64,000 nucleotides of DNA from contig NZ_JBBUKT010000002.1 of the NCBI RefSeq assembly GCF_038066715.1, positions 186,001 to 250,000 of the forward strand, read 5' to 3'. Origin of the DNA: Luteolibacter sp. Y139. Its GTDB lineage: Bacteria > Verrucomicrobiota > Verrucomicrobiia > Verrucomicrobiales > Akkermansiaceae. A program made the translations under genes and the position numbers. The notes under the pieces were generated by a model that ran no database searches, was not told the DNA's origin, and saw only the letters and a list, made by a program, of their open reading frames with translations. Of the stretch, positions 35,259 to 60,931 are shown piece after piece (positions within the stretch are counted from its first letter, which is position 1; every line of letters begins with the position of its first letter).

Positions 35259-35378
35259 GAGCGGGAAAAACACCCGTGATTTGAGGGAAAAGGGACCTCC
35301 GGCGATGCCAAGATTTCACTTGCGGCGGGCTTGTTTGCCGGCGGGTGGCTCCCTAGCTTCGCGGCGACCTACCTACTC

Positions 35379-36416
35379 ATGAGCGAACCCATTTACATCG
35401 GCATCGATAGCGGAGCCACCACGTCGAAGATTGCGGCGGTGCGAAGCGACGGCTCGATCTTCCCGAGCGAGCTACTGCAACGCCCCACCAGTTCCGAAGG
35501 CGGCACGGCCGCGGTGATCGGCGCGTGGATCGGCGCGATCAACGAATTCCTGGCGCAGCATGGCTTGGCCTGGGCGCAGGTGGAAGGCGTCGGTCTGGCC
35601 GTGCCCGGCCCGCGCCGCAGCTATGGCGTGCTGGATACCTCGCCGAACCTGCCCGCGGAATTCGATGGCTGGAATGTGGAGCACGACCTGCGGGTGGCGC
35701 TCGAGCGCGAGTCCGGCCGGATCCTGCCGCTGGCGCTCGGCAACGATGGCAATCTGGGCGGCGTGGCTGAAGCTCATCGCGCCCGTGGGACCGAGGCGTG
35801 CAGCGTGGTTATGCTGGCTCCCGGCTCGGGTCTCGGTGGTGCCTATGTGGATGCCTCCGGGATGCCACTCGACGGCGATACGCTGGCGGGGATGGAGACG
35901 GGGCACTTGGCGGCGCCTTTGCAGCTTCTGGGCACGGACGCGCTGACTTGCGGTTGTGGCCGCGACTGGGGGTGCTATGAGATGTACACCAGCCTCGCCG
36001 GCCTGCCGGGACTGCTGGAGCGCGCCTTGCCGCGTTACCCCGGTCACGTCTTGGCGGATCCTTCGCTTGGGAAAAAGGAGCGCGTGCTGAAGCTGCGCGG
36101 TCTGGCTCAGGATGGCGATGCGCTGGCGCTGGAATTGTTCGATTTGCAGGCGAAAGCGATGGGCTTGCTGGTGGCCGAGCTTTCAATGGCGGTGGACCCA
36201 AGTTGCTTCGTTATTGGCGGAGGTCTGATCGATCCCGATGCGACCACGGTGGAATTCCGCGAGCGCTACCTCGGCGGGATCCGCGATACGGCGCTGAAGT
36301 ATCTGTGGCCGACGCAGCGGGAGATGCTGCGGATCGTGCCGGCGACGCTTGGCGAGCTTTCGCAGGCAGTGGGTGCGGCGCTGGTGGCGCGGCACATCGC
36401 CAGGGAGGCGTCCTGA
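35379..36416 (+). CDS. ROK-family sugar kinase
   Basis: This 345-residue kinase opens with YIGIDSGATTSKIAAV, the ATP-phosphate loop of the actin-like fold. VGLAVPGPRR and LALGNDGNLGGVAEAH, with the catalytic Asp, follow. A GSGLGGAYVDASG loop and the ROK zinc-binding CGCGRDWGCYEMY near residue 190 follow, and later FVIGGGLIDPDATTV. The family phosphorylates glucose, mannose, N-acetylglucosamine or similar sugars; the specificity cannot be read here. The start is the ATG at 35379. The gene is followed by two hairpins and then an AlgE-type outer-membrane channel, so a sugar-uptake context is plausible. Confidence 0.9.
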   Translation: MSEPIYIGIDSGATTSKIAAVRSDGSIFPSELLQRPTSSEGGTAAVIGAWIGAINEFLAQHGLAWAQVEGVGLAVPGPRRSYGVLDTSPNLPAEFDGWNVEHDLRVALERESGRILPLALGNDGNLGGVAEAHRARGTEACSVVMLAPGSGLGGAYVDASGMPLDGDTLAGMETGHLAAPLQLLGTDALTCGCGRDWGCYEMYTSLAGLPGLLERALPRYPGHVLADPSLGKKERVLKLRGLAQDGDALALELFDLQAKAMGLLVAELSMAVDPSCFVIGGGLIDPDATTVEFRERYLGGIRDTALKYLWPTQREMLRIVPATLGELSQAVGAALVARHIAREAS

Positions 36417-40573: not shown

Positions 40574-41992
40574 ATGATCCTGCGCTCTCTCGTTGCCGTC
40601 GCCCTGCTCTCGTCGCTCGCCGCCGCCAAGGCTCCGCCGAATATCGTGCTGGTGCTGGTGGATGACATGGGGTGGGGGGATTTCTCGTGCTTCGGGAACA
40701 AGGAGGCGTCGACGCCGAACATCGACCGGATGGCGAAGGAAGGGATTCGTTTCCGGCAGTTTTACGTGAACTCGCCGATCTGCTCGCCGTCGCGTTGCGC
40801 GCTGACCACGGGGCAATATCCGCAGCGCTGGAAGATCACGTCATTCCTGGAAAACCGGGCATCGAACGAGCGCCGTGGGATGGCGCAGTGGCTGGACCCG
40901 CAGGCTCCGACACTGGCCCGCTTCCTCCAGAAGAAGGGGTATGCGACGGGGCACTTCGGCAAGTGGCATCTGGGTGGCCAGCGGGACGTGGACAATGCGC
41001 CGGCGATCACCTCCTACGGCTACGACCAGAGCCTGACGAACTTCGAGGGGATGGGGCCGAAGCTGCTGCCACTCACGATGAAGCCCGGCGACAAGGAGCC
41101 GGGGAAGATCTGGCAGGAGGCGACGCGGCTGGGCAAGCCGGTGACGTGGATGCTGCGCTCGAAGATCACCACCGGTTATGTGGATGCGGCGATCCCATTC
41201 ATCGACGAGGCGGTGAAGGCAAAGAAGCCGTTTTATGTGAACCTGTGGCCGGATGATGTTCACTCGCCGTTCTGGCCACCGGTGGAGTCGTGGAAGCAGG
41301 GCAAGCGCGAGCAGTACCTGTCGGTGCTAGAAAACATGGACCGGCAGTTCGGGAAATTCTTCGACCACATCCGGGACACGCCCGAGCTGCGCGACAATAC
41401 AGTGGTGATGATCTGCTCCGACAATGGGCCGGAGCCGGGTGCGGGATCGGCCGGGGAATTCCGCGGGGTGAAGGGGACGCTGTGGGAAGGTGGTGTGCGT
41501 TCGCCGCTCATCGTGTGGGCTCCGGGATTGATCGCTAAGGAGAAGGAAGGCTCGGTGAATGACGTTTCTGTTTTCGCGGCGTTCGACCTTGCGCCGTCGA
41601 TGCTGAAGCTGGCGGATGCGCCTGTTCCGGAGGGGGTGAAGTTTGACGGGGAAGATCTTTCGGAGACGATGTTAGGGAAGTCCGAGGCGTCGCGGAAGGC
41701 GCCAGTGTTCTGGCGTCGTCCACCGGACCGGAAAGTGGTGGGACAGCCGGGGCGGCGTCAGCCGGACCTGGCGGTGCGGGAAGGGAATTGGAAGCTGGTG
41801 TGTGAATATGATGGGTCGGAGAGCAAGCTTTTCGATCTGGCGACGGATCCGGGGGAGGCTAAGGATCTGGCTCAGGACAAGGCGGACGTCGCCGCGCGTT
41901 TGTCGAAGGCAGCGGTGGAGTGGAGCCAGTCGATGCCTGCGGACAAGGGGCCGGAACTCGGGGCAAAGAAGAAGGACGGAGACGAAGAATGA
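40574..41992 (+). CDS. secreted S1-type sulfatase
   Basis: This 472-residue sulfatase has a signal peptide (MILRSLVAVALLSSLAAA). The metal site NIVLVLVDDMGWGDFSCFG is followed by the formylglycine site CSPSR with its Cys at residue 70. HFGKWHLGG, PFYVNLWPDDVHSPFW, VVMICSDNGPEPG and RGVKGTLWEGGVRSPLIVW follow. The formylglycine would be made by FGE or anSME, neither of which is in the window. It removes sulfate from glycans or other sulfate esters outside the cytoplasm. The start is the ATG at 40574. It lies just before the six-gene lectin array on the same strand, 97 bases away, so the two may serve the same glycan. Confidence 0.93.
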   Translation: MILRSLVAVALLSSLAAAKAPPNIVLVLVDDMGWGDFSCFGNKEASTPNIDRMAKEGIRFRQFYVNSPICSPSRCALTTGQYPQRWKITSFLENRASNERRGMAQWLDPQAPTLARFLQKKGYATGHFGKWHLGGQRDVDNAPAITSYGYDQSLTNFEGMGPKLLPLTMKPGDKEPGKIWQEATRLGKPVTWMLRSKITTGYVDAAIPFIDEAVKAKKPFYVNLWPDDVHSPFWPPVESWKQGKREQYLSVLENMDRQFGKFFDHIRDTPELRDNTVVMICSDNGPEPGAGSAGEFRGVKGTLWEGGVRSPLIVWAPGLIAKEKEGSVNDVSVFAAFDLAPSMLKLADAPVPEGVKFDGEDLSETMLGKSEASRKAPVFWRRPPDRKVVGQPGRRQPDLAVREGNWKLVCEYDGSESKLFDLATDPGEAKDLAQDKADVAARLSKAAVEWSQSMPADKGPELGAKKKDGDEE

Positions 41993-42089: not shown

Positions 42090-43904
42090 ATGAATCGACT
42101 TTCCCTTCTGTTGACCGCGCTGGTGGCGGTTCCCGCTTCCCTCCAAGCTGCCTGGCCGGATGGGACGCTTTTCACGGCGCCCTTTGGTCCGGGCGGGACG
42201 TGGAACCTGTATCAAGCGGTGAGCAAGCCGATGACGTGGACGGAGGCGCAGTCAGCGGCTGAACGGCTCGTGGATCCGCTCGGCAAGACTGGCAAACCGG
42301 GACACCTGGTGTGCATCAGCAGCGCGGCGGAGAACATGTTCGTCTATCAGAGGGTGCAGGGCTTCTACATCTGGACCGGACTGACCGACAATGAGAAGCG
42401 CGGAGGCAAGGAGGCCCGCGACGACCGCAATGGCGGCTGGCATTGGATAACGGGCGAGCCTTACACCTTCCAATCGTGGCGGAGCTACGAGCCGAATGAA
42501 ATGGAAGCGACCGGAGAGGATGCGGTGTCGATCGGGGCGTCCGGCCGATGGCTTGACATGCCGAATGGCGCCGACGGTCAAACGGAGAACAAGCAGGCCT
42601 CGATGATCGAATGGGAAACGCGCTCGCCGGAGCCGGTGGCGGGGGCTGTGAAGCTCGAGCGAGTCTTGCCGGAGAAGTGGTCCGTGGATCTTTCCGCGTG
42701 GAAAGGAGAGGTGATCGGTGAAGGGCCGTGGACGGTGATGAGTTCGGTCGGGCTGGACACCTTCAGCATCCAGACGGTGGCCCAAGGCTTGGACGAACAG
42801 ATTCATGCGATGCAGACGGCCTTCCGGATGCCGCGGTTGAACTACCACGTGGAGCACATCACGCTCTTTGCCGGTGGTTGGGTGGAGATCAAAGATTTCC
42901 CCGCGTTTCCGATGAGGGCAGGTCCTTGCGGGGCACTTCATGTGGCCAAGGTGAAACTGGACAAGCCAGGGACGTGGAGCATCAACGTCCATGGTGATGA
43001 CTACTTCGCGGTGCGCTTTCCCGGGCACAAGTGGAAGTCGGTCAGGGGGCTCGCCGGGATCGATCCGCTGGATGCGGAAACGATGTATTATGAGTGCGAG
43101 TCGGCAGATGGTTGCGGGATCGGTGTGATCGATCTGCCAGCGGGAGAGAGTACCATCGAGGTGATGCTGGGCAATCGCGTCAACGACAGCATGATCCAAG
43201 TGCTGGCGGCACCCGGTGAGCAGACCATGGACGGCTCGACCGATCAGTGGCGCTTGCCCGGGCACAAGGCGGCGGGCGATCTGGCGTGGCCGGGTGTTAG
43301 CAGCAAGGGCTGGACCGTCATTCGCAAGAAGCCACCGGTGGGTGCGAAGCCGATGGAGAAGCTGATGGATGGGATGGCATTGCCCGAGAATGCGCCGGCA
43401 GTGACGGCGGAGGGAGTGGAGAAGATCAACTACATCGACTCGGACGGGGCGAGTGACATCGAGTTTCCGAATCCGGTGGAGCTGCCGGGCGATGAGCCGG
43501 GGCCGCAGGACCAGTTCGTGGTGATGGCCCAGGCCGAACTGGTGATCCCGCGCGATGGGCTCTATCACATCGGCATTCAGTCGGACAGCCGCTGTGCGCT
43601 GCGGATCGCCGACCAGCAGTGGCTGCGAATCATTCGCGATACGTCTTACCACGTGAAGGTCGAGGGTGACACGATTCATACCGAGAACCCGGATCGCAAG
43701 AGCACGAACGGGCAGCTCTTCGCGGAGATCGAGCTGAAGAAGGGCAGCTATACGATCGAGGCGTTCTATGTGAATGTGAAGGGGCCGACCTCTCTGGCGG
43801 TCTTCGGCGCGCCGGCGGGATACGCTCCGCGGCTGCTGGCGAAGGATGGCGCCAAGATCGAACCGGACATCGATGGCTTGCCGCTGGTGATGCCTGCAAA
43901 GTGA
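42090..43904 (+). CDS. tandem lectin paralogue 1: secreted C-type-lectin-like / PA14-like protein
   Basis: A 604-residue protein. The signal peptide is residues 1-20. The C-type-lectin-like domain is about 30-178: TWTEAQSAAE, GHLVCISSAAENMFV, FYIWTGLTDNEKRGG, then EPN at 134-136, GEDAVSIG, GRWLDMP and MIEWE at 172-176. EPN is the tripeptide that gives mannose-type specificity in animal lectins. The two positions where the family normally has Cys here hold other residues, so there is no disulfide pair. Residues 190-280 are of unknown fold and the most variable part. PA14-like strands follow at about 282-375 (GTWSINVHGDDYFAVRFPG) and 475-575 (DGLYHIGIQSDSRCALRIA). There is no anchor, so it is periplasmic or released. 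I infer glycan binding; no catalytic motif is visible. Confidence 0.8.
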   Translation: MNRLSLLLTALVAVPASLQAAWPDGTLFTAPFGPGGTWNLYQAVSKPMTWTEAQSAAERLVDPLGKTGKPGHLVCISSAAENMFVYQRVQGFYIWTGLTDNEKRGGKEARDDRNGGWHWITGEPYTFQSWRSYEPNEMEATGEDAVSIGASGRWLDMPNGADGQTENKQASMIEWETRSPEPVAGAVKLERVLPEKWSVDLSAWKGEVIGEGPWTVMSSVGLDTFSIQTVAQGLDEQIHAMQTAFRMPRLNYHVEHITLFAGGWVEIKDFPAFPMRAGPCGALHVAKVKLDKPGTWSINVHGDDYFAVRFPGHKWKSVRGLAGIDPLDAETMYYECESADGCGIGVIDLPAGESTIEVMLGNRVNDSMIQVLAAPGEQTMDGSTDQWRLPGHKAAGDLAWPGVSSKGWTVIRKKPPVGAKPMEKLMDGMALPENAPAVTAEGVEKINYIDSDGASDIEFPNPVELPGDEPGPQDQFVVMAQAELVIPRDGLYHIGIQSDSRCALRIADQQWLRIIRDTSYHVKVEGDTIHTENPDRKSTNGQLFAEIELKKGSYTIEAFYVNVKGPTSLAVFGAPAGYAPRLLAKDGAKIEPDIDGLPLVMPAK

Positions 43905-43974
43905 CAAGGTCGCCGCGGAAGGTGCAAGTTGAGCGATCCCGGGGGACGGGAGTGAAAGCTGGCCAAGAGCGTTC

Positions 43975-44007
43975 TTGGCAAGGTGAGGCGGGTTCCGTAG
44001 TTGATTT
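43975..44007 (+). promoter_or_regulatory. shared array promoter block, copy before lectin gene 2
   Basis: TTGGCA (43975-43980) and CGTAGTTGATTT (43996-44007) match the blocks before genes 1 and 4 in sequence and spacing. Similarity to the gene 4 copy extends upstream to about 43945 (GAAAGCT and CTTGGCAAG). A hairpin (GGAACT / AGTTCC, 44027-44042) lies between the block and the start codon. Confidence 0.6.
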
Positions 44008-44071
44008 CGATAGGTAGACCCGGTTTGGAACTTATCAGTTCCGCCGCCCCAAGCCACCCAACCGTCAACCC

Positions 44072-45901
44072 ATGAATCGTCTTTCTCTCTTGCTGGTCGC
44101 CCTTGTCGCGGCTCCCGCGTCCCTACTGGCCGCCGTGTGGCCGGATGGCACGCTTTTCACCGCTCCCTTCGGTCCCGGGGGGACGTGGAATCTCTACAAG
44201 TCGGTGGCCACGCCGATGTCGTGGACGGAGGCCCAGTCGGCGGCGGAACGCAGCGTGGATCCGCTGGGTAAGACCGGGAAGCCGGGTCACCTGATCTGCA
44301 TCAGCAGCGCGGCGGAGAACATGTTCGTCTATCAGAAGGTGACGGGCCACTACATCTGGCTCGGGCTCACCGATAGTGAGAAGCGCGGGGGCAAGGAGGC
44401 GGGAAGCAATCGCAATGGCGGCTGGCATTGGTTGACGGGCGAGCCTTACACGTATCAATCGTGGCGGAGCATCGAACCGAACGAGGGCGAATCGACCGGC
44501 GAGGATGCGGTGGCGATCGAGTCGTCCGGCCGCTGGGCGGACTGGCCAATGGGTGCGGACGGGCAGACCGAGCCCAGGCATGCCTCGATGATCGAGTGGG
44601 AGACGCGGTCACCGGAACCGGTGGCCGGAGCTGTGAAGATCGAGCGGGTGCTGCCGGAAAAGTGGGCGGTGGATCTTGCCGACTGGAAAGGCAGGGTGCG
44701 CGGCGAGGGACCATGGACGGTCATGAGCGTGCTGGGTCTGGATACGTCCAGCATCTGGAGCGTGGTTCAGGGTTTGCAGCAGCAAATGCCGACTTCGACG
44801 GTGGCCTACCGGATGTCGAATATGAACTACCACGTGGAGCACAACAATTTCTTCGCCGGTGGCTGGGTGGAGATTAAGGACAACCCGGCCTTTCCGATGT
44901 TCATGGGGTCCTGCGCGGCATTGCACGTGGCCAAGGTGAAGCTTGAGAAGCCCGGGACGTGGAGCTTCAACGTCCATTGTGACGACTACGCTGCGGTGCG
45001 CTTTCCGGGGCACAAGTGGAAGTCGGTGACGGGGCTGGGAGGCATCGATCCGCTGGATGCGGAGACGATGTACTATGAGTGCGAGTCGGGTGACGGCTGC
45101 ATGGTGGGTGTGATTGATTTGCCGGCGGGAGAGAGCACGGTGGAGGTGCTGTTAGGAAACCGTGTCTTCGATGGGATGATCCAGATGCTGGCCGCTCCCG
45201 GGGAGCACACGATGGACGGGTCCACCGATCAATGGCGGGTGCCGGGCCACAAGGCGGCAGGCGATCTCGCGTGGCCGGGCGTGAGCAGCAAGGGGTGGTC
45301 GGTGATTCGCAAGAACTTGCCGACGGGTGCCAAGCCGATGGAGAAGCTGATGGATGGCATGGCGCTGGCCGAGGACGCGCCGGCGGTGACGGCGGAAGGG
45401 GTGGAGAAGATCAATTACATCGACTCGGATGCGGCGAGCGACATCAAGTTTCCGAACCCCGCGAATTTGCCTGGAGATGAGCCCGGTGGGCAGAATCAGT
45501 TCGTGGTGATGGCGCAGGCGGAGCTCGTGATTCCGCGCGACGGTATGTATCACATTGGCATTCATGCGGACAATCGCTGCGCGCTGCGGATCGCCGATCA
45601 GCAGTGGCTTCGTTTCGTGCGCGACACCAGCTACAACGGCAAGATCGAGGGTGACACGATGCACGAGGAGGACCCGGACCGGATGGGCACGGCAGGCCAG
45701 CTCTTCGGCGAGATCGAGCTGAAGAAGGGCACTTACACGATCGAGGCGTTTTACGTGAATCTCAAGAGCCCGACAACGCTGTCGGTCTTCGGTGCGCCGG
45801 CGGGATATGCGCCGCGGCTGTTGACGAAGGATGGTGGGAAGATCGAGCCGGACATCGATGGTTTGCCGCTGGTGATGCCGGTGGCTGCGGCTGAGAAGTG
45901 A
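44072..45901 (+). CDS. tandem lectin paralogue 2
   Basis: A 609-residue member of the array, collinear with the other five. The signal peptide ends near LLAAVWPDG. The lectin-like domain keeps EPN (SIEPNEGES), GEDAVAIE, GRWADWP and MIEWE. The segment after GPWTVMSVLGLDTSSIWSVV is variable relative to the others (QQQMPTSTVAYRMSN). PA14-like cores are GTWSFNVHCDDYAAVRFPG and DGMYHIGIHADNRCALRIA. It has an extra Cys at the first PA14 core compared with gene 1. It is closest to gene 3, 16 bases downstream with no promoter block between, so the two are probably one transcript. Confidence 0.8.
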   Translation: MNRLSLLLVALVAAPASLLAAVWPDGTLFTAPFGPGGTWNLYKSVATPMSWTEAQSAAERSVDPLGKTGKPGHLICISSAAENMFVYQKVTGHYIWLGLTDSEKRGGKEAGSNRNGGWHWLTGEPYTYQSWRSIEPNEGESTGEDAVAIESSGRWADWPMGADGQTEPRHASMIEWETRSPEPVAGAVKIERVLPEKWAVDLADWKGRVRGEGPWTVMSVLGLDTSSIWSVVQGLQQQMPTSTVAYRMSNMNYHVEHNNFFAGGWVEIKDNPAFPMFMGSCAALHVAKVKLEKPGTWSFNVHCDDYAAVRFPGHKWKSVTGLGGIDPLDAETMYYECESGDGCMVGVIDLPAGESTVEVLLGNRVFDGMIQMLAAPGEHTMDGSTDQWRVPGHKAAGDLAWPGVSSKGWSVIRKNLPTGAKPMEKLMDGMALAEDAPAVTAEGVEKINYIDSDAASDIKFPNPANLPGDEPGGQNQFVVMAQAELVIPRDGMYHIGIHADNRCALRIADQQWLRFVRDTSYNGKIEGDTMHEEDPDRMGTAGQLFGEIELKKGTYTIEAFYVNLKSPTTLSVFGAPAGYAPRLLTKDGGKIEPDIDGLPLVMPVAAAEK

Positions 45902-45917
45902 CTCGTCCGATGACCTC

Positions 45918-47744
45918 ATGAAACGACTCTCCCTTTTGCTTGCCGCACTTGCTGTGGCTCCAATGTCCGCCCAAGCGGGGTGGCCGAACGGCACGCTTTT
46001 CACGGCGCCTTACGGTTCTGGCGGGACTTGGAATCTCTACAAGGTGGTCAGCACCCCGATGACGTGGACGGAGGCCCAGTCGGCGGCGGAGCGCAGCGTG
46101 GATCCACTCGGGAAGACCGGGAAGCCGGGTCATTTGGTGTGCGTCAGCAGCGCGGCGGAGAACATGTTCGTCTATCAGAAGGTGACGGGCGACTACATCT
46201 GGATTGGTCTGACCGACAATGAGAAGCGCGGAGGGAAGGAGGCTGGTAGCAATCGCGCGGGAGGCTGGCACTGGCTCAGCGGTGAGCCGTATACCTTCCA
46301 ATCATGGCGGACCAGCGAGCCGAATGTGCATGAAGCCACCGGCGAAGACGCCGTGGCGATCGGGCACTCCGGGCGTTGGGGGGATTGGCCGTATGGAGCG
46401 GACGGCGAGATGGAGTTTCGTCATCCTTCGATGGTCGAGTGGGAAACCCGGTCGCCGGAACCGGTGGCCGGAGCTCTCAAGATCGAGCGGGTATTGCCGG
46501 AGAAGTGGTCAGTCGACCTTGCCGCATGGAAAGGCAGGGTGCGCGGTGAGGGACCGTGGACGGTGATGAGTTTGATGGGGCTCAACACCTCCAACATCTG
46601 GGCTGCGGTCCAAGGCTTGCAACAGCAAATGCCGGTATCGCCAGCGGCCTACCGCATGTCGAAGATGAACTATCACATCGAGCACGGCAGCTTCTTCGCC
46701 GGCGGCTGGGTGGAGATTAAGGACAATCCGATGTTTCCCATGTTCATGGGGCCCTGTGCGGCGCTGCATGTGGCCAAGGTGAAACTCGACAAGCCTGGGA
46801 CGTGGAGCTTCAACGTTCATTGTGACGTTTACTCCGCGGTGCGCTTTCCCGGGCACAAGTGGAAGTCGGTGACCGGATTTGGCGGGGTGGATCCACTTGA
46901 TCCGGAAACGATGTACTACGAATGCGAGTCGGGTGACGGCAGCATGATGGGCGTGATCGATCTGCCGGCGGGAGAAAGCACGGTGGAGGTACTGTTAGGA
47001 AACCGCAGCTTCGATGGCATGATCCAGATGCTGGCGGCTCCGGGCGAGCACACGATGGACGGCTCGACCGACCAATGGCGGGTGCCCGGGCACAAGGCGG
47101 CGGGTGATCTCGCATGGCCCGGTGTAAGCAGCAAGGGGTGGTCGGTGATTCGCAAGAATCTGCCGGCAGGCGCCAAGCCGATGGAGAAGCTGATGGATGG
47201 CATGGCCCTGCCGGAGAGCGCGCCGACCGTGGCCGTCGAGGGGGTGGAGAAGATCAACTACATCGACTCCGGGTCGGTCAGTGACATCAAGTTTCCGAAT
47301 CCGGTGGAGCTGCCCGGTGATGAGCCTGGCGGGCAAGACCAGTTCGTGGTGATGGCGCAGGCGGAGCTGGTGATCCCGCGCGATGGAATTTATCACATCG
47401 GCATCCACACGGATGATCGCGGGGCCCTGCGCATCGCCGATCAACAGTGGCGGCGCTTCGTGCGCGACAGCACGTATCAAGGCGCGATCGAGGGGGACAC
47501 GATCCACTCGGACGAGGCGAAGCCCATTGGAAATGGCTGCCAGCTCTTTGGCGAGATCGAGTTGAAGAAGGGGACCTATACGATGGAGGCCTTTTATATG
47601 AACCGGGATGGCCCGACGACGCTGTCGGTCTTCGGTGCGCCTGCGGGATACGCTCCACGGCTGCTGGCGAAGGATGGCGCGAAGGTCGAGCCGGACATCG
47701 ATGGCCTGCCGCTGGTGATGCCGGTGGCAGAGCCGGAGAAGTGA
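45918..47744 (+). CDS. tandem lectin paralogue 3
   Basis: A 608-residue member of the array with a signal peptide (RLSLLLAALAVAPMSAQA). The lectin-like domain has TSEPNVHEATGEDAVAIG, GRWGDWP and MVEWE. It differs from the others in having Val after EPN. The variable segment is QQQMPVSPAAYRMSK followed by MNYHIEHGSFF. PA14-like cores are GTWSFNVHCDVYSAVRFPG, in which one Asp of the usual DD pair is Val, and DGIYHIGIHTDDRGALRIA. The start lies 16 bases after the stop of gene 2. Its second half is very similar to gene 2, suggesting recent duplication or exchange. Confidence 0.8.
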   Translation: MKRLSLLLAALAVAPMSAQAGWPNGTLFTAPYGSGGTWNLYKVVSTPMTWTEAQSAAERSVDPLGKTGKPGHLVCVSSAAENMFVYQKVTGDYIWIGLTDNEKRGGKEAGSNRAGGWHWLSGEPYTFQSWRTSEPNVHEATGEDAVAIGHSGRWGDWPYGADGEMEFRHPSMVEWETRSPEPVAGALKIERVLPEKWSVDLAAWKGRVRGEGPWTVMSLMGLNTSNIWAAVQGLQQQMPVSPAAYRMSKMNYHIEHGSFFAGGWVEIKDNPMFPMFMGPCAALHVAKVKLDKPGTWSFNVHCDVYSAVRFPGHKWKSVTGFGGVDPLDPETMYYECESGDGSMMGVIDLPAGESTVEVLLGNRSFDGMIQMLAAPGEHTMDGSTDQWRVPGHKAAGDLAWPGVSSKGWSVIRKNLPAGAKPMEKLMDGMALPESAPTVAVEGVEKINYIDSGSVSDIKFPNPVELPGDEPGGQDQFVVMAQAELVIPRDGIYHIGIHTDDRGALRIADQQWRRFVRDSTYQGAIEGDTIHSDEAKPIGNGCQLFGEIELKKGTYTMEAFYMNRDGPTTLSVFGAPAGYAPRLLAKDGAKVEPDIDGLPLVMPVAEPEK

Positions 47745-47782
47745 CCGGCGTGAGACGGGTGGAAAGCTAATTGAGAGACTCC

Positions 47783-47816
47783 TTGGCAAGTTGTGAGGAG
47801 TTATCGTAGTTGAATT
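47783..47816 (+). promoter_or_regulatory. shared array promoter block, copy before lectin gene 4
   Basis: TTGGCA (47783-47788) and CGTAGTTGAATT (47805-47816) repeat the blocks before genes 1 and 2. About 60 bases (from 47758) align with the gene 2 upstream region. The block lies 34 bases before the gene 4 start. Confidence 0.6.
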
Positions 47817-47849
47817 CTTTATCTGCGGCATCCGTCCGCTCCTGAACCG

Positions 47850-49694
47850 ATGAATCGACTTTCCCCCTTGCTGGCTGCTCTCGCCCTCGCCCCTGTGACA
47901 TTGCAAGCAAGTGACATCGGGTGGCCGGACGGAACGCTTTTCACCGCTCCTTTCGGTCCCGGCGGGACATGGAATCTCTACAAGGTGGTCAGCACGCCGA
48001 TGACGTGGACGGAGGCCCAGTCAGCGGCGGAGCGAAGTGTGGATCCGCTGGGCAAGACCGGGAAGCCGGGGCATCTGGTGTGCATCAGCGGCGCGGCCGA
48101 GAACATGTTCGTCTATCAGAAAGTGGAGGGGCGCTGGATCTGGGCGGGGCTGACCGACAGCGAGAAGCGCGGTGGAAAGGAAGCGGGCAGTGATCGCAAC
48201 GGCGGCTGGCATTGGGTGACCGGGGAGCCCTACACCTTTCAATTGTGGCGGAGCAGTGAGCCGAATGAATATCACGCGACGGGGGAGGATGGCGTGGCGG
48301 TCGGGCATGCCGGCCGCTGGCTGGACATGTCGATTGGCGCGGATGGCCAGATGGAGACCAAGAATCCCTCGATGATCGAATGGGAAACCCGGTCGCCGGG
48401 GCCGGTGCCGGGAGCCCTCAAGATCGAGCCGGTGCTGCCGAAGAAGTGGGCGGTCGATCTTTCCGCGTGGAAGGGAGAGTCGATCGGTGAAGGGGCATGG
48501 ACGGTGATGAGCACATTGGACCTCGATGCCTCGAGCATTTGGACGGTGGTCCAAGGCTTGCAGGAAGCGATGCCTGCCGAGACGACGGCTTACCACATCG
48601 CGTGGATGAATTATCGAGTGGAACCGCCGAGCAAAAAGACCGCGGGCGGCTGGATGGAGATTCCCAACAACCCGCGGTTTCCGATGCAGATGGGGCCTTG
48701 CGCGGCGCTGCACGTGGCGAAGGTGAAACTGGACAAGCCGGAGACGTGGAGCGTCAACGTTCACTGCGATGATTACGTCGCGATCCGCTTTCCCGGCCAC
48801 AAGTGGAAGTCGGCGAGCGGGCTCGGGGGCATCGATCCATTGGATGCCGAGACGATCTACCAAGAGTGTGGGACGGGCGATGGCAACGTGATCGGCGTGA
48901 TCGACTTGCCTGCGGGAGAAAGCACGGTGGAGGTGCTGTTAGGTAGTTCACAGTATGATGCGATGATCCAGATGCTCACCGCTCCGGGCGAGCATGCGAT
49001 GGATGGCTCCACCGATCAGTGGCGCAAGCCGGGCCATACGGCCAAGGGGACGGTCGCGTGGCCGGGCGTGAGCAGCAAGGGGTGGTCGGTCATTCGCAAG
49101 AACCTGCCCGCGGGTGGCAAGCTGATGGAGAAGCTCATGGACGGTATGGCCTTGCCCGAGAGCGCGCCCACGGTGACGGCGGAAGGGGTGGAGAAGATCA
49201 ACTACATCGACTCCGGGGCACCGAGCGACATCAAGTTTCCGAATCCGGTGGAGTTGCCCGGCGACGAGCCCGGCGGGCAGGACCAGTTCGTGGTGATGGC
49301 GCAGGCGGAGCTGGTGATTCCGCGCGATGGCACCTATCAGATTGGCATTAACTCGGACAACCGCTGCGCCCTGCGGATCGCGGATCAGAAGTGGAAGCGC
49401 ACGATGCGTGACCAGACGTATCACGTGAAGATCGAGGGGGACACGATGCATTCCGAGGAGCCGGAGACTATGGGTATGGCCGGCCAATTCGTCGGGGAGA
49501 TCGAGTTGAAGAAGGGCAGCTACACGATCGAGGCGTTTTACGTGAACGTGAAGGGGCCGACCGTGCTGTCGGTCTTTGGCGCGCTGGCTGGCTTTCCACC
49601 GCGGCTACTGGCGAAGGATGGCGGCAGGATCGAGCCTGATGTTTCCGGATTGCCGCTGGTGAAGCCGGTGATCGTGCCTGCGCCGGAGAGGTGA
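47850..49694 (+). CDS. tandem lectin paralogue 4
   Basis: A 614-residue protein, the longest and most divergent of the six. The lectin-like domain has SSEPNEYHATGEDGVAVG, GRWLDMS and MIEWE. The variable region is QEAMPAETTAYHIAWMNYRV, then EPPSKKTAGGWMEIPNNP. That last part replaces the EHxxxFAGGWVEIKDNP found in most copies and is two residues longer. PA14-like cores are ETWSVNVHCDDYVAIRFPG and DGTYQIGINSDNRCALRIA. The C terminus (PLVKPVIVPAPER) also differs. It has its own copy of the promoter block and probably heads a unit with genes 5 and 6. Confidence 0.8.
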   Translation: MNRLSPLLAALALAPVTLQASDIGWPDGTLFTAPFGPGGTWNLYKVVSTPMTWTEAQSAAERSVDPLGKTGKPGHLVCISGAAENMFVYQKVEGRWIWAGLTDSEKRGGKEAGSDRNGGWHWVTGEPYTFQLWRSSEPNEYHATGEDGVAVGHAGRWLDMSIGADGQMETKNPSMIEWETRSPGPVPGALKIEPVLPKKWAVDLSAWKGESIGEGAWTVMSTLDLDASSIWTVVQGLQEAMPAETTAYHIAWMNYRVEPPSKKTAGGWMEIPNNPRFPMQMGPCAALHVAKVKLDKPETWSVNVHCDDYVAIRFPGHKWKSASGLGGIDPLDAETIYQECGTGDGNVIGVIDLPAGESTVEVLLGSSQYDAMIQMLTAPGEHAMDGSTDQWRKPGHTAKGTVAWPGVSSKGWSVIRKNLPAGGKLMEKLMDGMALPESAPTVTAEGVEKINYIDSGAPSDIKFPNPVELPGDEPGGQDQFVVMAQAELVIPRDGTYQIGINSDNRCALRIADQKWKRTMRDQTYHVKIEGDTMHSEEPETMGMAGQFVGEIELKKGSYTIEAFYVNVKGPTVLSVFGALAGFPPRLLAKDGGRIEPDVSGLPLVKPVIVPAPER

Positions 49695-49745
49695 CCTCGA
49701 TATCGGAGCCTATTTGTCTAACATTTCCCCCTTCAGCCTGAATTT

Positions 49746-51560
49746 ATGAAACGACTTTTTGTGTTATTGGCGGGGCTGATCATGGCTCCATTGTCCGCCC
49801 ACGCCGCTTGGCCGGATGGGACACTGTTCACCGCACCTTTCGGGCCCGGCGGGACTTGGAATCTCTACAAGACGGTGAGCACACCGATGACGTGGGTAGA
49901 TGCCGAGGCGGCGGCGGAGCGGAGCGTGGATCCGCTCGGGAAGACTGGAAAGCCGGGGCATCTGGTGTGCATCGGGAGTGCGGCGGAGAACATGTTCGTT
50001 CGCCAGAAGGTGGATGGTGGCTGTATCTGGATGGGGTTGACTGATAGCGAGAAGCGCGGAGGAAAGGAGGCTCACGATAATCCAAAGGGTGGCTGGCGTT
50101 GGCTGACGGGAGAGCCGATCACCTACGCGGCATGGCGCAGCATGGAGCCGAATGACGCCGGGACCGGCGAGGATGCGGTGGCGATGGAATCGGCCGGGCG
50201 GTGGGGCGACTGGCCGGACGGGTCCAATGGATTCGCTGAATGGCGGCATTCCTCGATGATCGAGTGGGAGACTCGTTCGGCCGAGCCGGTTGCGGGGGCG
50301 ATCAAGATCGAGCGGGTGTTGCCGGAGAAGTGGGCGGTGGATTTCTCGAAGAGGGAGCCTATCGGCGGCGAGGGTCCGTGGTCGGTGGTTAGCGTCTTGG
50401 AGCTGAATACCATGTCCATCTGGAACGTGGTGAAGGATCTTCAGCAGCGGATGGAGATCCACGGCAACTTCATGCGGATGGAGCGGATGAACTATCACAT
50501 CGAGCACGGCAGTTTTTTTGCGGGGGGCTGGGTGGAGATTAAGGACAATCCGCAGTTTCCCATGAGGACGAACCTTTGTGCGGCACTGCATGTGGCGAAG
50601 GTGAAGCTCGAAAAACCGGGGACGTGGAGCATCAACGTTCACGCTGACGATTACTTCGCGGTGCGGTTTCCCGGTCACAAGTGGAAGTCGGTGAGCGGTC
50701 TCGGCGGGATCGATCCGTTAGACCCGGAAACGATGTATTTCGAATGCGAGTCCGGCGATGGGAATGCGATCGGGGTGATCGACTTGCCGGCTGGCGAGAG
50801 CACGGTGGAGGTGATGTTGGCCAATCGCCTGCACGATGGGATGATCCAGGTGCTGGCCGCGCCCGGCGACCACACGATGGACGGCTCGACGGACCAATGG
50901 CGTGTGATGGGTCACAAGGCGGCGGGTGACTTGGCCTGGCCCGGCGTGAGCAGCAAAGGGTGGACAGTGATCCGGAAAGACCTGCCGGCAGGAGCCAAGC
51001 CGATGGACCTGCTGAAGGATGGGATGACGCTTCCCGAGAGCGCGCCAGCGGTGACGGCGGAAGGGGTGGAGAAGATCAACTACACCGACTCCGATGGTGC
51101 GAGTGAGCCCAAGTTCCCGAATCCATCGGAGCTTCCCGGTGACAAGCCGGGGTCGCAGAACCAATTCGTGGTGATGGCCCAGGCGGAGCTGGTGATCCCG
51201 CGCGATGGCCTTTATCACATCGGCATTTGTTCGGACAACCGCGCGGCCCTCCGCATTGCGGACCAGCAGTGGTTGCGCTTCGTGCGCGATAACAGCTACA
51301 AGGGGAAGATCGAAGGGGACACGATCCATACCGAGGATGCCGATACGATCGGGAACTACGGGATGCTGTTCAGCGAGGTCGAGCTGAAGAAGGGGGCCTA
51401 CACGATCGAGGTCTTCTACATGAACCGGGACGTGCCGTGCACGCTGTCGGTGTTCGGAGCGCCGGCGGGATATGCGCCGCGGTTGCTGGCGAAGGATGGC
51501 GGCAAGATCGAGCCGGACATCGATGGGATGCCGCTGGTGATGCCTGTTGCTTCGAAGTGA
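49746..51560 (+). CDS. tandem lectin paralogue 5
   Basis: A 604-residue member of the array with a signal peptide (RLFVLLAGLIMAPLSAHA). The lectin-like domain has SMEPNDAGTGEDAVAME, one residue shorter after EPN, then GRWGDWP and MIEWE. The variable region is QQRMEIHGNFMRMERMNYHI. PA14-like cores are GTWSINVHADDYFAVRFPG and DGLYHIGICSDNRAALRIA. It follows gene 4 by 51 bases and precedes gene 6 by 23 bases, with no promoter block in either gap. The N-terminal region has Val-Asp-Ala-Glu where other copies have Thr-Glu-Ala-Gln. Confidence 0.8.
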   Translation: MKRLFVLLAGLIMAPLSAHAAWPDGTLFTAPFGPGGTWNLYKTVSTPMTWVDAEAAAERSVDPLGKTGKPGHLVCIGSAAENMFVRQKVDGGCIWMGLTDSEKRGGKEAHDNPKGGWRWLTGEPITYAAWRSMEPNDAGTGEDAVAMESAGRWGDWPDGSNGFAEWRHSSMIEWETRSAEPVAGAIKIERVLPEKWAVDFSKREPIGGEGPWSVVSVLELNTMSIWNVVKDLQQRMEIHGNFMRMERMNYHIEHGSFFAGGWVEIKDNPQFPMRTNLCAALHVAKVKLEKPGTWSINVHADDYFAVRFPGHKWKSVSGLGGIDPLDPETMYFECESGDGNAIGVIDLPAGESTVEVMLANRLHDGMIQVLAAPGDHTMDGSTDQWRVMGHKAAGDLAWPGVSSKGWTVIRKDLPAGAKPMDLLKDGMTLPESAPAVTAEGVEKINYTDSDGASEPKFPNPSELPGDKPGSQNQFVVMAQAELVIPRDGLYHIGICSDNRAALRIADQQWLRFVRDNSYKGKIEGDTIHTEDADTIGNYGMLFSEVELKKGAYTIEVFYMNRDVPCTLSVFGAPAGYAPRLLAKDGGKIEPDIDGMPLVMPVASK

Positions 51561-51583
51561 AATTCTTATTCGCCTGTTAGCCC

Positions 51584-53410
51584 ATGAATCGACTTCTCCC
51601 CCTCATCGCGACTCTCGTCGCGGCTCCCGCTTCCTTGCATGCGGCGTGGCCGAACGGCACGTTTTTCACCGCACCGTACGGTCCCGGCGGGACGTGGAAC
51701 CTCTACAAGACGGTAGACACGACGATGACGTGGACGGAGGCGCAGTCGATGGCGGAGCGTAGCGTGGATCCGTTGGGGAAGACGGGGAAGCCGGGGCATC
51801 TCGTGTGCATCGGCAGCGCGGCGGAGAACATGTTCGTCTATCAGAAGGTGCTGGGGCACTACATTTGGCTCGGGATGAGCGACAATGAGAAGTACGGTGG
51901 AAAGGAAGCGGGCAGTGATCGAACGAAGGGTTGGCATTGGGTGACGGGCGAACCGGTCACTTTTCAGGCGTGGCGAAGCATGGAGCCGAACGAGTATTTG
52001 CCGACGGGAGAGGATGCCGTGGCGATCGAAAGTTCGGGCCGCTGGGGAGACTGGGCAATCGGATCGGACGGGCAGCAGATGGATTTCCGGAATGCCTCGA
52101 TGATCGAGTGGGAAACCCGCTCTCCCGGGCCGGTCCCGGGAGCGGAGAGGATCCGGCGAGTATTGCCAGCGAAGTGGCGGGTCGATTTATCGAACAACGA
52201 GAGGAATGGTCCGGGGGATGGCCCATGGACCGTGATGAGCGTCCTCGGAATCCAGTCATTCAGTATCTGGACCGCGGTGATGGATCTACAGGTCAGGATG
52301 TCGTTGCTCAAGGATTCCACCCGTCGCTGCCAGCGGGTCAACTATCACGTCGAGTATGGCATCTCCCTTGCCGGCGGTTGGACGGAGGTCAAGGATCACC
52401 CGGATTTTCCCATGGTGAAGGATACCTGTGCGGCGCTGCACGTGGCCAAGGTGAAACTCGACAAGCCGGGGACATGGAGCATCAATGTCCACGGCGATGA
52501 CTACTACGCGGTCCGCTTTCCGGGCCACAAGTGGAAGTCGGTGAGTGGTCTCGGAGGAATCGATCCGCTCGACCCGGAAACGATGTATTTCGAGAGCGAG
52601 TCGGGCGATGGCAATTCGATCGGGGTGATCGATTTGCCGGCCGGCGAAAGCACGATTGAAGTGTTGCTGGTGAACCGCACTGCAGATGGGATGATTCAAG
52701 TGCTCGCGGCGCCGGGGGAGCACGTGCTCGATGGCTCGACCGACCAGTGGCGCGATCCCGGCCACAAGGCGGCGGGAGATCTTGCGTGGCCCGGCATCGG
52801 CAGCAAGGGATGGACGGTCATTCGCAAGGATCTGCCAGCCGGTGCCAAGCCGATGGAGAGCCTGCAGGATGCGATGGGGCTTCCCGCCAGTGCTCCATCG
52901 GTGACTGCCGAGAATGTGGAGAAGCTCAACTACATCGACTCGGATGGTGCGAGCGACATCAAGTTTTCCAACCCGGTGGAAGTACCCGGCGACAGGCCGG
53001 GGGCACAGGACCAGTTCATGGTGATGGCGCAGGCGGAACTCGTGATCCCACGAGACGGGCTCTATCAGATTGGCATTTACTCGGACAGCAAGGCTGCCCT
53101 ACGGATCGCGGATCAGAAGTGGCTGCGCTTCGTCCGCGACAACACCTACAAGGGGAAGCTCGAAGGAGACACGATACACGTCGAGGACGAGGATCGAAAC
53201 GGCAACTACGGGATGCTGTTCGGCGAGGTGGAGCTCAAGAAGGGCAGCTATACGATCGAGGCACTTTACGTGAATCTCAAAAGCCCGTGTGCGCTGTCGG
53301 TATTCGGTGCTCCGGCGGGGTATGCGCCGAGGCTGCTGGCGAAGGATGGCGGCAAGATCGAGCCGGACATCGATGGCATGCCGCTGGTGATGCCAGCGGC
53401 TGCGAAGTGA
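51584..53410 (+). CDS. tandem lectin paralogue 6
   Basis: A 608-residue protein, the last member of the array. Signal peptide RLLPLIATLVAAPASLHA. The lectin-like domain has SMEPNEYLPTGEDAVAIE, GRWGDWA and MIEWE. The region after it is the most altered: RVDLSNNERNGPGDGPWTVM, then MDLQVRMSLLKDSTRRCQRV and VEYGISLAGGWTEVKDHP. PA14-like cores are GTWSINVHGDDYYAVRFPG and DGLYQIGIYSDSKAALRIA. It is convergent with the GH3 gene, only 6 bases between stops, so the transcripts must overlap or end inside a neighbour. Confidence 0.8.
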   Translation: MNRLLPLIATLVAAPASLHAAWPNGTFFTAPYGPGGTWNLYKTVDTTMTWTEAQSMAERSVDPLGKTGKPGHLVCIGSAAENMFVYQKVLGHYIWLGMSDNEKYGGKEAGSDRTKGWHWVTGEPVTFQAWRSMEPNEYLPTGEDAVAIESSGRWGDWAIGSDGQQMDFRNASMIEWETRSPGPVPGAERIRRVLPAKWRVDLSNNERNGPGDGPWTVMSVLGIQSFSIWTAVMDLQVRMSLLKDSTRRCQRVNYHVEYGISLAGGWTEVKDHPDFPMVKDTCAALHVAKVKLDKPGTWSINVHGDDYYAVRFPGHKWKSVSGLGGIDPLDPETMYFESESGDGNSIGVIDLPAGESTIEVLLVNRTADGMIQVLAAPGEHVLDGSTDQWRDPGHKAAGDLAWPGIGSKGWTVIRKDLPAGAKPMESLQDAMGLPASAPSVTAENVEKLNYIDSDGASDIKFSNPVEVPGDRPGAQDQFMVMAQAELVIPRDGLYQIGIYSDSKAALRIADQKWLRFVRDNTYKGKLEGDTIHVEDEDRNGNYGMLFGEVELKKGSYTIEALYVNLKSPCALSVFGAPAGYAPRLLAKDGGKIEPDIDGMPLVMPAAAK

Positions 53411-53416
53411 TGGGAT

Positions 53417-55600
53417 CTACTGAAGACTGAAGCTCGAGGATCTCACTTGGGCGGAGCTGCTGCCGGTCATGAGGGTGAAGGTTCCCGGGTCCAGGCGGTA
53501 GGTTCCATTTGGCATCCAGTAGCCTAGGTCCTTTGAGGGGATCTCGAAGTCGACGGTGACGGTTTTGCCGGCGGGAACAGAGACGCGCTTGAAAGCTTTC
53601 AGTTCCTTGATGGGGCGGGTGACGAAGGCGACGTCATCCTGGATGTAGGCTTGAACGACTTCGTCGCCGTCGCGTTCGCCCTGGTTGGTGACCGAGACCT
53701 TGAAGCGAACGGTTCCATCATGAGGGATGGTACGCTTGTCTAACAGCGGGGGAGAGATTTGGAAACTCGTGTAGCTGAGGCCGTGGCCGAAGGGCCAGAG
53801 CGGGCTATTCTTGATGTCGGTGTATTTGGACGTCCACTTGTCGCCCTCGACGAGGGGACGGGAGGTCGGGGTGGAATTGTAGGTTAGCGGGATTTGTCCG
53901 ACGCTGCGGGGGAAGGTGACGGGGAGCTTGCCAGCCGGGTTCACGTCGCCAAAGAGGACATCGGCGATGCCGGGGCCGGCCATGGTGCCGCCGTGCCAGG
54001 CGAGCAGGATGGCGGGGCAGGTCTCTGCCAGCCAGCCGACGGTGAGCGGGCGGCCGGTCATGAGAACCACGGCGTAGGGCTTGCCGAGGGCGCTGACCTT
54101 TTGCACGAGATCGAGCTGCTGTTGGGGAAGATCGATCGAACTCCGCGAAGTTGCTTCGCCGGTCATGTCGCCGTTTTCACCGACGACGACGATGATGTAG
54201 TCGGCGTCCTTCGCTTCATCGACCCCGTCGGATGGCTTGCGGAAGCTGAAGCCGGAAGATGAGCCTGCAGGAGTGTAGATCACAGTGCCGTTGTTGCCGA
54301 GGCGCTGGCGGACGGCTTCGACGAGTGTGACCGAGTCTTCAGCGTGGCCATCGCCGGTCCAGCTTCCCATTTGACTGAGCTTGTCATTCGCGAGCGCGCC
54401 GAGGATGGCGATTTTCTTGGCGGCCGGTGGGATGGGAAGGGTCTGGTTGTTGTTCTTCAGGAGGACGCAGGACTTCGCCGCGGCTTCGCGCGCGAGCTTG
54501 AGGTGATCGGGGTGAAGGATGGCTTCCTTTTCACGGGCAGGGTCGCCGTAGGGCTTGTCGAAGAGGCCGAGCGAGAACTTCATGCGGAGCACGCGGCGGA
54601 CGGCATTGTCGACCAGCTTGAGGTCGTCGGCGTTGTCGATCAGGCCTTGAGCCTGCATCATGCAGCTGCCCCAGATTTCCACGTCGAGGCCCGAGCGGAG
54701 CGCGATCTGCCCAGCCTCATCCCAACTCGGGGCGACGCGGTGATTCACGAGCTGACCGATGGCGTCGTAGTCCGAGACGACGATGCCTTCGAAGCCCCAC
54801 TCCTTGCGCAGCACGTCCTGAAGCAGCCAGGGATTCGAAGTGGCCGGGACGCCATCGATGGCGCTGAAGGAGGGCATGATGGAACCAGCACCGGCCTTGA
54901 GGCCGGCGAGGAAGGGCGGGAAATGGGTTTCGCGAAGGGCTCTCAGCGAGACGTCGGCGAAGTTGTAGTCGCGACCGCCTTCGGCTTCACCGGAGCCGGC
55001 GAAGTGCTTCAGGCAGGCCATCATGCGGTCGGGGGCGGAGATGTCCTTTCCCTGGAAGCCGTGGACTCGTGCGGCGGTGAAGGCGGAACTCAGGACCGGG
55101 TCCTCGCCGGAGCCTTCGACGATGCGGCCCCAGCGGGGATCGCGGGCGATGTCCGCCACGGGGGCGAAGGTCCAGGAGACATTTGCGGCGCGGGATTCCT
55201 TGGCGGCTACGGCGGCGCAGCGTTCGGCCAGGTCAGGATCCCAGCTCGCTGCTTCGCCCAGTGGCACGGGAAAGATGGTGCGGTAGCCGTGGACGACGTC
55301 GAATGCGAAGACGAGGGGGATCTTGTGGCGGGTGGAGAGGGCGGCCCTTTGCATCTCGCTGGTCGGGCCGGTACCGCGGACATTGAAGGTGCCGCCCAGG
55401 ACGCCAGCTTGGGCGAGCGCCATGTGCTGGGGCTTCCAGCCGCCGCCAGCGTGGCCGTCGACGAGGCGGAGCTGGCCGAGTTTTTCCTCAAGCGTGAGCT
55501 TCGAGAGGATGGCTTCGATGCGTTGCCCGGTCTCGTCCGCGCGCGCCGTGTGAAAGGCGGTTAGGAGCAGCGACAGCGTGAGACAGAACGGACGGGTCAT
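53417..55600 (-). CDS. GH3 family beta-glucosidase
   Basis: A 727-residue protein. A signal peptide (MTRPFCLTLSLLLTAFHTARA) is followed by the GH3 barrel with FAFDVVHGYRTIFPVPLGEA, FAPVADIARDPRWGRI, CLKHFAGSGEAEGGRDYN, and the nucleophile Asp277 in GIVVSDYDAIG. The second alpha/beta domain runs from about 370 (SCVLLKNNNQTLPI), with NPAGKLPVTFPRSVGQIPLT, and a C-terminal FnIII-like domain (KFKVSVTNQGERDGDEVVQA). The layout matches BglX-type periplasmic enzymes. It releases terminal glucose or a related sugar from glycans. The start is the ATG at 55600, inside a palindrome. It faces the lectin array. Confidence 0.94.
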   Translation of the reverse strand: MTRPFCLTLSLLLTAFHTARADETGQRIEAILSKLTLEEKLGQLRLVDGHAGGGWKPQHMALAQAGVLGGTFNVRGTGPTSEMQRAALSTRHKIPLVFAFDVVHGYRTIFPVPLGEAASWDPDLAERCAAVAAKESRAANVSWTFAPVADIARDPRWGRIVEGSGEDPVLSSAFTAARVHGFQGKDISAPDRMMACLKHFAGSGEAEGGRDYNFADVSLRALRETHFPPFLAGLKAGAGSIMPSFSAIDGVPATSNPWLLQDVLRKEWGFEGIVVSDYDAIGQLVNHRVAPSWDEAGQIALRSGLDVEIWGSCMMQAQGLIDNADDLKLVDNAVRRVLRMKFSLGLFDKPYGDPAREKEAILHPDHLKLAREAAAKSCVLLKNNNQTLPIPPAAKKIAILGALANDKLSQMGSWTGDGHAEDSVTLVEAVRQRLGNNGTVIYTPAGSSSGFSFRKPSDGVDEAKDADYIIVVVGENGDMTGEATSRSSIDLPQQQLDLVQKVSALGKPYAVVLMTGRPLTVGWLAETCPAILLAWHGGTMAGPGIADVLFGDVNPAGKLPVTFPRSVGQIPLTYNSTPTSRPLVEGDKWTSKYTDIKNSPLWPFGHGLSYTSFQISPPLLDKRTIPHDGTVRFKVSVTNQGERDGDEVVQAYIQDDVAFVTRPIKELKAFKRVSVPAGKTVTVDFEIPSKDLGYWMPNGTYRLDPGTFTLMTGSSSAQVRSSSFSLQ

Positions 55601-60241: not shown

Positions 60242-60931
60242 GTGGGTGCCGGAACCATTCAAGACCCGTCGTATGTCCGCGAGGCCTTCGCGCGCATCGC
60301 CGACCGCTATGTGACGACGAATCACGTGCTCAGCCTAGGCACGGATATCCTGTGGCGGCGGAAGGTGGCGCGGATCGTGCGTTCATGGCAGCCGCGGCGG
60401 GTGCTCGATGTGGCGACCGGCACCGGGGATCTGGCGCTTGAGATGCAGGATGCTTGTCCGGACGTGGAGGTGACCGGTAGTGACTTTTGCGCGGAGATGC
60501 TAGCGCATGCGAGCCGGCGGGGACTGGCGCGGACGCTGGTGGCGGATGCGCTGGCGCTGCCGTTTCGGGATGGGGAGTTTGATGTGGTGACGGTGGCCTT
60601 CGGGCTGCGGAACATGGCCGACTATGCTGCGGCGATTCGTGAGATGCGGCGGGTGCTGCGGCCGGGTGGGCATCTTGTGGTGCTCGATTTCTCTTTGCCG
60701 GAAGGTGTGATGAGGAAGCCCTATCGCTGGTATCTGCACAATGTCCTGCCGAAGATGGCGGGCTACCTGACGGGGCAGAAGGATGCGTATGAATACCTCG
60801 GTGGCTCGATTGAGGAGTTCCCGATGGGGAAGGAGATGTGCGGGCTGATTGATGCGCAGGGTTTCCGAGGGGCGGATGCGCGGCCGCTGTGCTGTGGGGT
60901 GGCCTCGATCTATACGGCGGAGGCGGTTTGA
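60242..60931 (+). CDS. ubiE: demethylmenaquinone / ubiquinone methyltransferase
   Basis: This 229-residue SAM-dependent enzyme performs the C-methylation in menaquinone (MenG) or ubiquinone (UbiE) synthesis. Family stretches are FARIADRYVTTNHVLSLGTD, WRRKVARIV, VLDVATGTGDLALEMQ, FDVVTVAFGLRNMADYAAAI, and VLDFSLPEGVMRKPYRWYLH. The start is a GTG at 60242, as expected for the MGAGTIQDPSYVREAFA N terminus. Verrucomicrobiota use menaquinone, so the menG role is more likely. It is divergent from the protease gene. Confidence 0.95.
   Translation: MGAGTIQDPSYVREAFARIADRYVTTNHVLSLGTDILWRRKVARIVRSWQPRRVLDVATGTGDLALEMQDACPDVEVTGSDFCAEMLAHASRRGLARTLVADALALPFRDGEFDVVTVAFGLRNMADYAAAIREMRRVLRPGGHLVVLDFSLPEGVMRKPYRWYLHNVLPKMAGYLTGQKDAYEYLGGSIEEFPMGKEMCGLIDAQGFRGADARPLCCGVASIYTAEAV

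Follow-up and report, generated by a model that had tools for sequence, protein, structure and literature searches.

What would a bacterium do with six adjacent copies of a lectin-like gene? The question is raised by a 64,000-nucleotide stretch of the Luteolibacter sp. Y139 genome (contig NZ_JBBUKT010000002.1, positions 186,001 to 250,000), referred to here in its entirety as the window. The open reading frame (ORF) list for positions 42090-53410 of the window contains six uninterrupted + strand ORFs, head-to-tail paralogues of 604-614 amino acids, and the tandem duplication noticed in a preliminary description of this DNA is directly supported by the intact frames and by 67-83% protein identity between pairs (72-82% over aligned codons). 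The copies are spaced at 1.84-1.99 kb and share 64-86% DNA identity in register, which excludes chance as the origin of the array. We tentatively propose, at somewhat under an even chance, that these genes encode secreted, non-catalytic polysaccharide-binding accessory proteins with altered binding sites, tied to the glycoside hydrolase family 3 (GH3) enzyme encoded beside them.

In array order, all on the + strand, the genes are g1 (P0001; 42090..43904, 604 amino acids), g2 (P0002; 44072..45901, 609), g3 (P0003; 45918..47744, 608), g4 (P0004; 47850..49694, 614), g5 (P0005; 49746..51560, 604) and g6 (P0006; 51584..53410, 608). An apparent Sec signal peptide was recognized by eye at the start of all six proteins, which are probably secreted; in each of them it is followed by a C-type-lectin-like domain (CTLD) and two PA14-type modules of ~200 residues. 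The Lectin_C profile (PF00059) matched every copy, four of them above the Pfam cut-off (the g1 alignment scored 31 bits), g6 0.1 bit below it and g4, the lowest of the six, well below; in a genome-wide scan five of the six copies scored above the cut-off. Matches to PA14 (PF07691) were likewise found in all six, each below the Pfam cut-off, and of 14 related proteins scanned with the same profile, 10 scored above it. No catalytic family matched the six proteins at E values up to 1, nor did PEP-CTERM (PF07589) at the same threshold, and no lipobox or C-terminal anchor was seen by eye, so that the signal peptides and the lack of catalytic motifs and anchors reported earlier were borne out.

The g2 protein was modelled with AlphaFold2 using a 32-row alignment of the six window proteins and 26 stretches from relatives. 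The distant relatives were needed, as an alignment of the six paralogues alone gave a model with a predicted local distance difference test (pLDDT) score of 35. With them the mean pLDDT was 84.6 and the predicted template-modelling score (pTM) 0.86, with residues 1-21, 258-270 and 606-609 under 50. The CTLD lies at residues ~26-179 (~44147-44608), the first module, PA14-1, at ~190-405 (~44639-45286) and the second, PA14-2, at ~406-603 (~45287-45880). In the first nine VIA-align rows the modelled CTLD matched mannose-binding proteins and other C-type domains with Z 17.7-18.3 and a root-mean-square deviation (rmsd) of 1.3-1.5 A over 111-120 residues, and the CTLD sequence profile found 2ox9 at E 3e-8. 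As the VIA-align rows span mainly residues 26-179, the assignment of the PA14 part draws on Foldseek, profiles and hhalign. Foldseek assigned the g2 model a probability of 1.00 to several PA14 structures; its first four rows were an anti-sigma-factor protein from Clostridium clariflavum with tandem PA14 domains (6qe7, 6qdi), and after these came CTLDs, the Epa/Flo adhesins of yeast and Marinomonas PA14. The PA14-1 profile matched the adhesin Lap 6m8m, which we take to be MhPA14, at E 7e-5 and Marinomonas PA14 at E 0.009-0.011. PA14-annotated phage and virus proteins matched in the Foldseek viral library were not used as evidence. The predicted CTLD and PA14 folds are well supported, the g2 model and the profiles bearing directly on them, and they agree with the lectin-like and paired PA14-like domains first read from the sequence.

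With respect to the middle of the proteins, which had been described as an unassigned segment, a different picture was obtained. In P0005 numbering, two homologous modules occupy residues ~187-403 and ~404-604; hhalign pairs them over 170 of ~210 columns (99.8%, E 6.7e-30). Taken by itself, the middle piece also matched its counterpart in the second module (hhalign 96.8%, E 2e-10). The middle segment is therefore the N-terminal half of PA14 module 1.

The array lies between a sulfatase gene (40574..41992, + strand; PF00884) and the GH3 glycosidase gene (53417..55600, - strand; PF00933, PF01915 and an Fn3-like domain, with no PA14 match). Both family assignments made earlier were confirmed; as neighbours the two are not equally informative. 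Among the 18 genomes of the genus, this GH3 is present in two, the same two that carry a full-length lectin gene, and is adjacent to it in both. The sulfatase is present in 14 of the 18 and in genome G011 stands beside a ubiE-type methyltransferase gene with no lectin gene, so that it says little and is probably an incidental neighbour. In the second lectin-bearing genome, G008, the order is sulfatase, one lectin gene, GH3 and ubiE, with GH3 adjoining ubiE directly, while in G011 ubiE follows the sulfatase within ~0.1 kb and neither lectin nor GH3 lies between. Given this shared distribution, and their joint absence from G011, the lectin-GH3 pair behaves as one presence/absence block. The ubiE gene of the window (60242..60931, + strand) marks the distal boundary of the block in which Y139 (G000), G008 and G011 differ.

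When the 17 other genomes of the genus were searched at E up to 1e-30, a close full-length homologue was found in one, G008; its single copy is 73-81% identical to the six. The remaining 16 of the 18 genomes had no lectin match at that threshold, with partial matches at 1e-10 in G003, G005 and G015. Synonymous divergence (dS; Nei-Gojobori with Jukes-Cantor correction, rough near 1) was 0.77-1.19 between the paralogues and 0.89-1.11 to the G008 copy, and 1.06, 1.00 and 0.77 between the two genomes for the sulfatase, GH3 and a ROK-like gene, respectively. As the paralogue values approximate those to G008 and those of the flanking genes, the copies date roughly from the species split, and a recent amplification was rejected. 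The G008 copy groups with g5 and g6 (99/97 unrooted; 94/97 once outgroups, whose branches measure 5.9 and 10, are included), a grouping that fits either order of duplication and speciation. No clear signal of gene conversion was observed, four-fold-site differences following a similar course along the gene among the six (0.37-0.56) and to G008 (0.37-0.55).

Retention under purifying selection is also directly supported: the ratio of nonsynonymous to synonymous divergence (dN/dS) among the six was 0.13-0.27, and no 20-codon window exceeded 0.58. Mean identity was lowest in the N-terminal half of PA14-1 (0.575), followed by the signal peptide (0.606), and was 0.769 in the CTLD and 0.805 and 0.767 in the other PA14 parts. 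The idea of a diversified set, in the sense of diversified binding sites, is not supported by these results, as selection is purifying and divergence peaks in the N-terminal half of PA14-1 and not in the CTLD. CTLD proteins diversified by diversity-generating retroelements vary within a variable region of the CTLD only. Such a mechanism was rejected here because the copies differ along the whole gene, dS is near 1 and the divergence is highest outside the CTLD; a reverse transcriptase was not searched for.

In the favoured explanation the six genes would encode multidomain carbohydrate-binding accessory proteins, each with one CTLD and a tandem PA14 pair, and the lectin genes and the GH3 gene would form one block within which the lectins were amplified locally. 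The proteins would bind or hold a polysaccharide outside the cell, or a glycan of its surface, at the sites of action of GH3 and other enzymes. They would thereby fill in trans the role that a PA14 insert has in cis within some GH3 enzymes, and binding would not proceed through unchanged textbook Ca sites. We infer sugar binding, cooperation with GH3 and a division of labour among the copies. Apart from the GH3 linkage, the accessory role is supported by the CTLD and PA14 matches described above, by the EPN motif and subsequent Glu-Asp kept in all six, by the low dN/dS, by a clostridial PA14 dyad, that of RsgI3, said in a passage of PMC3990059 to target pectin, and by the occurrence of PA14 domains in GH3 enzymes, as stated in part of PMC4444583; the title of a study cited there attributes the substrate specificity of a GH3 beta-glucosidase to its PA14 domain.

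Several observations weigh against this explanation. The motif residues come first. All six array CTLDs retain EPN and the downstream Glu-Asp, and four of the five usual Ca-site residues are present. The Asn of WND, which we take to have a role in Ca and sugar binding, is replaced by L, A or G (W[LAG]D) in all six copies and in G008. Among 19 relative CTLD rows, several of which are near-copies and so not independent, EPN is found in 13 and ND is kept in 16, the other three being planctomycete records. In PA14 lectins an Asp-Asp pair (DcisD) holds Ca and sugar, according to passages in PMC6650083 and PMC8092209. In PA14-1 this pair is retained in five of six copies (it is Asp-Val in g3), followed by Tyr where Gly is expected, and in 12 of 13 full-length relative rows; in PA14-2 it is lost in five copies and kept in one, compared with 10 of 11 rows among relatives. 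The acidic residue of the PA14-1 loop is N or S in all six and acidic in all 13 relative module-1 rows. The array clade thus appears to keep the folds and change the sites, while most relatives keep the motif residues. With the usual Ca/sugar residues altered in all three domains, textbook Ca sites would not be used unchanged and both glycan binding and the accessory role are weakened. On the whole the earlier proposal of a glycan-binding set is partly supported.

Genomic and structural points count in the same direction. GH3 is on the opposite strand to the array and does not share an operon with it, and the linkage, seen in two genomes that are themselves related, may reflect a single event rather than a repeated association. 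A distant full-length relative in G307 had no obvious sulfatase or GH3 adjacent when its neighbourhood was examined by eye. The Foldseek match over the PA14 pair had a low template-modelling (TM) score (0.34-0.38 of the target) and an rmsd of 17-19 A, so that the domains agree and the packing of the pair does not. Finally, a portion of PMC4444583 notes that CTLD folds often occur without sugar binding, which the fold alone does not imply.

The alternative that survives best, which we consider rather unlikely, is that these are surface or matrix proteins (adhesin, biofilm or sheath components) that use their CTLD and PA14 domains for cell-cell or cell-surface contacts, six copies raising the dose or widening recognition. 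Adhesins are indeed among the matched PA14 and CTLD structures (Epa, Flo, Marinomonas PA14), and two relatives with the CTLD-PA14 layout, L028 and L029, end in PEP-CTERM, L028 above and L029 just below the Pfam cut-off. Other relatives reach 1000-1700 amino acids with repeated PA14, CTLD or GLEYA domains; LamG occurs in some of the larger ones and was seen by eye in G307. The array proteins, however, are short, have neither a PEP-CTERM match nor a visible anchor, and are linked to GH3.

A third explanation, lectin folds that bind no sugar and have taken on a structural or protein-protein role, such as that of a scaffold holding secreted enzymes, is in our judgement unlikely. It would account for the alteration of all three sites despite purifying selection and for the high variability of the N-terminal half of PA14-1 (0.575 compared with 0.77-0.81 in the other domains). 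Retention of EPN and most of the CTLD Ca site, as well as of Asp-Asp in PA14-1 of five copies, argues against it, and the GH3 linkage suggests a sugar context. Still less probable, to our minds, is that the proteins are repurposed lectins in which standard Ca/sugar chemistry has been lost from all three domains in this lineage and the fast-diverging N-terminal half of PA14-1 would have become a new surface for recognition, so that the six copies would act as receptors or scaffolds for different ligands. Selfish or neutral amplification without a selected need, to which the single full-length copy in G008 and the lack of matches in 16 of 18 genomes might point, is very improbable, since neutral copies would have decayed and all six ORFs are intact at synonymous divergence near 1 with low dN/dS.

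The array proteins were also compared with known systems. The CTLD is chiefly familiar from the recognition proteins of animals, and usual C-type domains carry conserved disulfides. The array CTLD shares with C-type carbohydrate-recognition domains (mannose-binding protein, collectins, ASGR; PF00059) the fold (Z ~18), the profile, the downstream ED and, at the EPN/QPD position, EPN in all six. It differs from them in being bacterial, in carrying W[LAG]D in place of WND, in its fusion to PA14 modules and in having only one invariant cysteine, so that the usual disulfides are not conserved. Like the C. clariflavum protein, presumably RsgI, the array proteins have two consecutive PA14-type modules; unlike it, they are fused to a CTLD, show no anti-sigma part and differ in the packing of the pair. 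With the PA14 lectins found in RTX adhesins (6m8m, 6x7x) and in Epa/Flo the array shares the PA14 fold, a weak profile match and, in five of six copies, the Asp-Asp of PA14-1, but it has lost that pair from PA14-2 in five copies and the PA14-1 loop acid from all, and its proteins are not part of a giant adhesin. Closest in layout are the Verrucomicrobiota proteins L064, L065 and L066, with the same domain order, 26-33% identity and a GPGGTWN-type start motif; unlike the array they keep EPN, WND and both Asp-Asp pairs. Some relatives with a CTLD and two PA14 domains are, again unlike the array, parts of larger proteins (1127-1687 amino acids) or have a PEP-CTERM end. Formylglycine-generating enzyme, which has a CTLD-like fold and acts in sulfatase maturation, was rejected as a candidate because no FGE-sulfatase profile (presumably PF03781) matched any of the six proteins at E up to 1.

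In surveys that scored the best three candidates per genome, distant homologues were found in 14 of 386 genomes of the order at E up to 1e-20 and in 3 of 387 genomes of a phylum sample, Y139 and G008 being counted in both. A contig scan with an alignment of the six alone found no relative; with a diverse alignment it recovered 13 named loci (11 verrucomicrobial and 2 planctomycete records). The CTLD-PA14-PA14 unit therefore extends beyond this genome. Outside Y139, a single copy in the same place in G008 and distant relatives were found, and a row of six was seen in Y139 alone; G036 had up to seven matches spread over several contigs, in a comparison in which nearly all of 57 genomes had all candidates scored. 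Among the matches listed in searches of open papers, no description of this domain combination or array was seen, nor did the searches made reveal a known family with a different function. The domains and the lectin gene families themselves are of known kinds. A bacterial secreted family with a CTLD and a PA14 pair, in six copies beside GH3, offers a tractable test of what bacterial CTLDs bind, of whether sugar binding persists in lectin folds whose Ca sites are altered and of how non-catalytic secreted proteins serve polysaccharide degradation.

Within the array the intergenic gaps are, in order, 167, 16, 105, 51 and 23 nt, those before g3, g5 and g6 being 16, 51 and 23. The leader of g2 (43905..44071, + strand), a possible promoter region, resembles that of the one lectin gene of G008 (75% over 153 columns, E 7e-24), and the g4 leader (47745..47849, + strand) resembles that of g2 (72% over 65 columns); the g1 leader gave only short matches. 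From these gaps and similarities, the array may comprise three separate transcription units, g1, g2-g3 and g4-g6. A promoter and terminator scan was uninformative, with 0 promoter-like and 1 terminator-like hits, fewer than in shuffles (2.8 and 6.8).

Around the block, ubiE adjoined the sulfatase in one of nine other genus sulfatase neighbourhoods, that of G011; in the other eight, the window lectin, GH3 and ubiE were not matched beside it. A sulfatase tree, built from 11 of the 14 sequences and omitting those of G005, G016 and G013, groups G011 with G008 at 85/89 and does not place it outside G000 and G008. Between GH3 and ubiE, inside the variable block, the window encodes a 1490-amino-acid subtilase (S8) with four MBG_3 stretches (55669-60141, - strand). 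Upstream, near a ROK-family gene (35331-36416), lies an outer-membrane protein of the Alginate-export family (PF13372; 36585-37964, + strand).

In the Y139 genome as a whole (7.1 Mb, 31 contigs, 97% complete), a protein search recovered the array in full length, six copies, together with two weak and partial matches at other places. The Lectin_C profile, at E up to 0.01, matched only the six array genes, and it matched none of 14 control genomes; PA14 is common, with 33 matches in Y139 at the same threshold, four of them inside the array. One 2100-amino-acid frame (G000:C15:15661-19530) has seven such PA14 matches, and a 2017-amino-acid protein with RCC1 repeats and LamG (L043:6034-12087) contains a weak stretch resembling the array CTLD. 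Among the relatives, L036, L037 and L040 (also L069, L070 and L072-L074) combine two or three CTLD stretches with several of PA14 in a protein of ~1300-1400 amino acids, apparently an expansion of the same domains within one chain.

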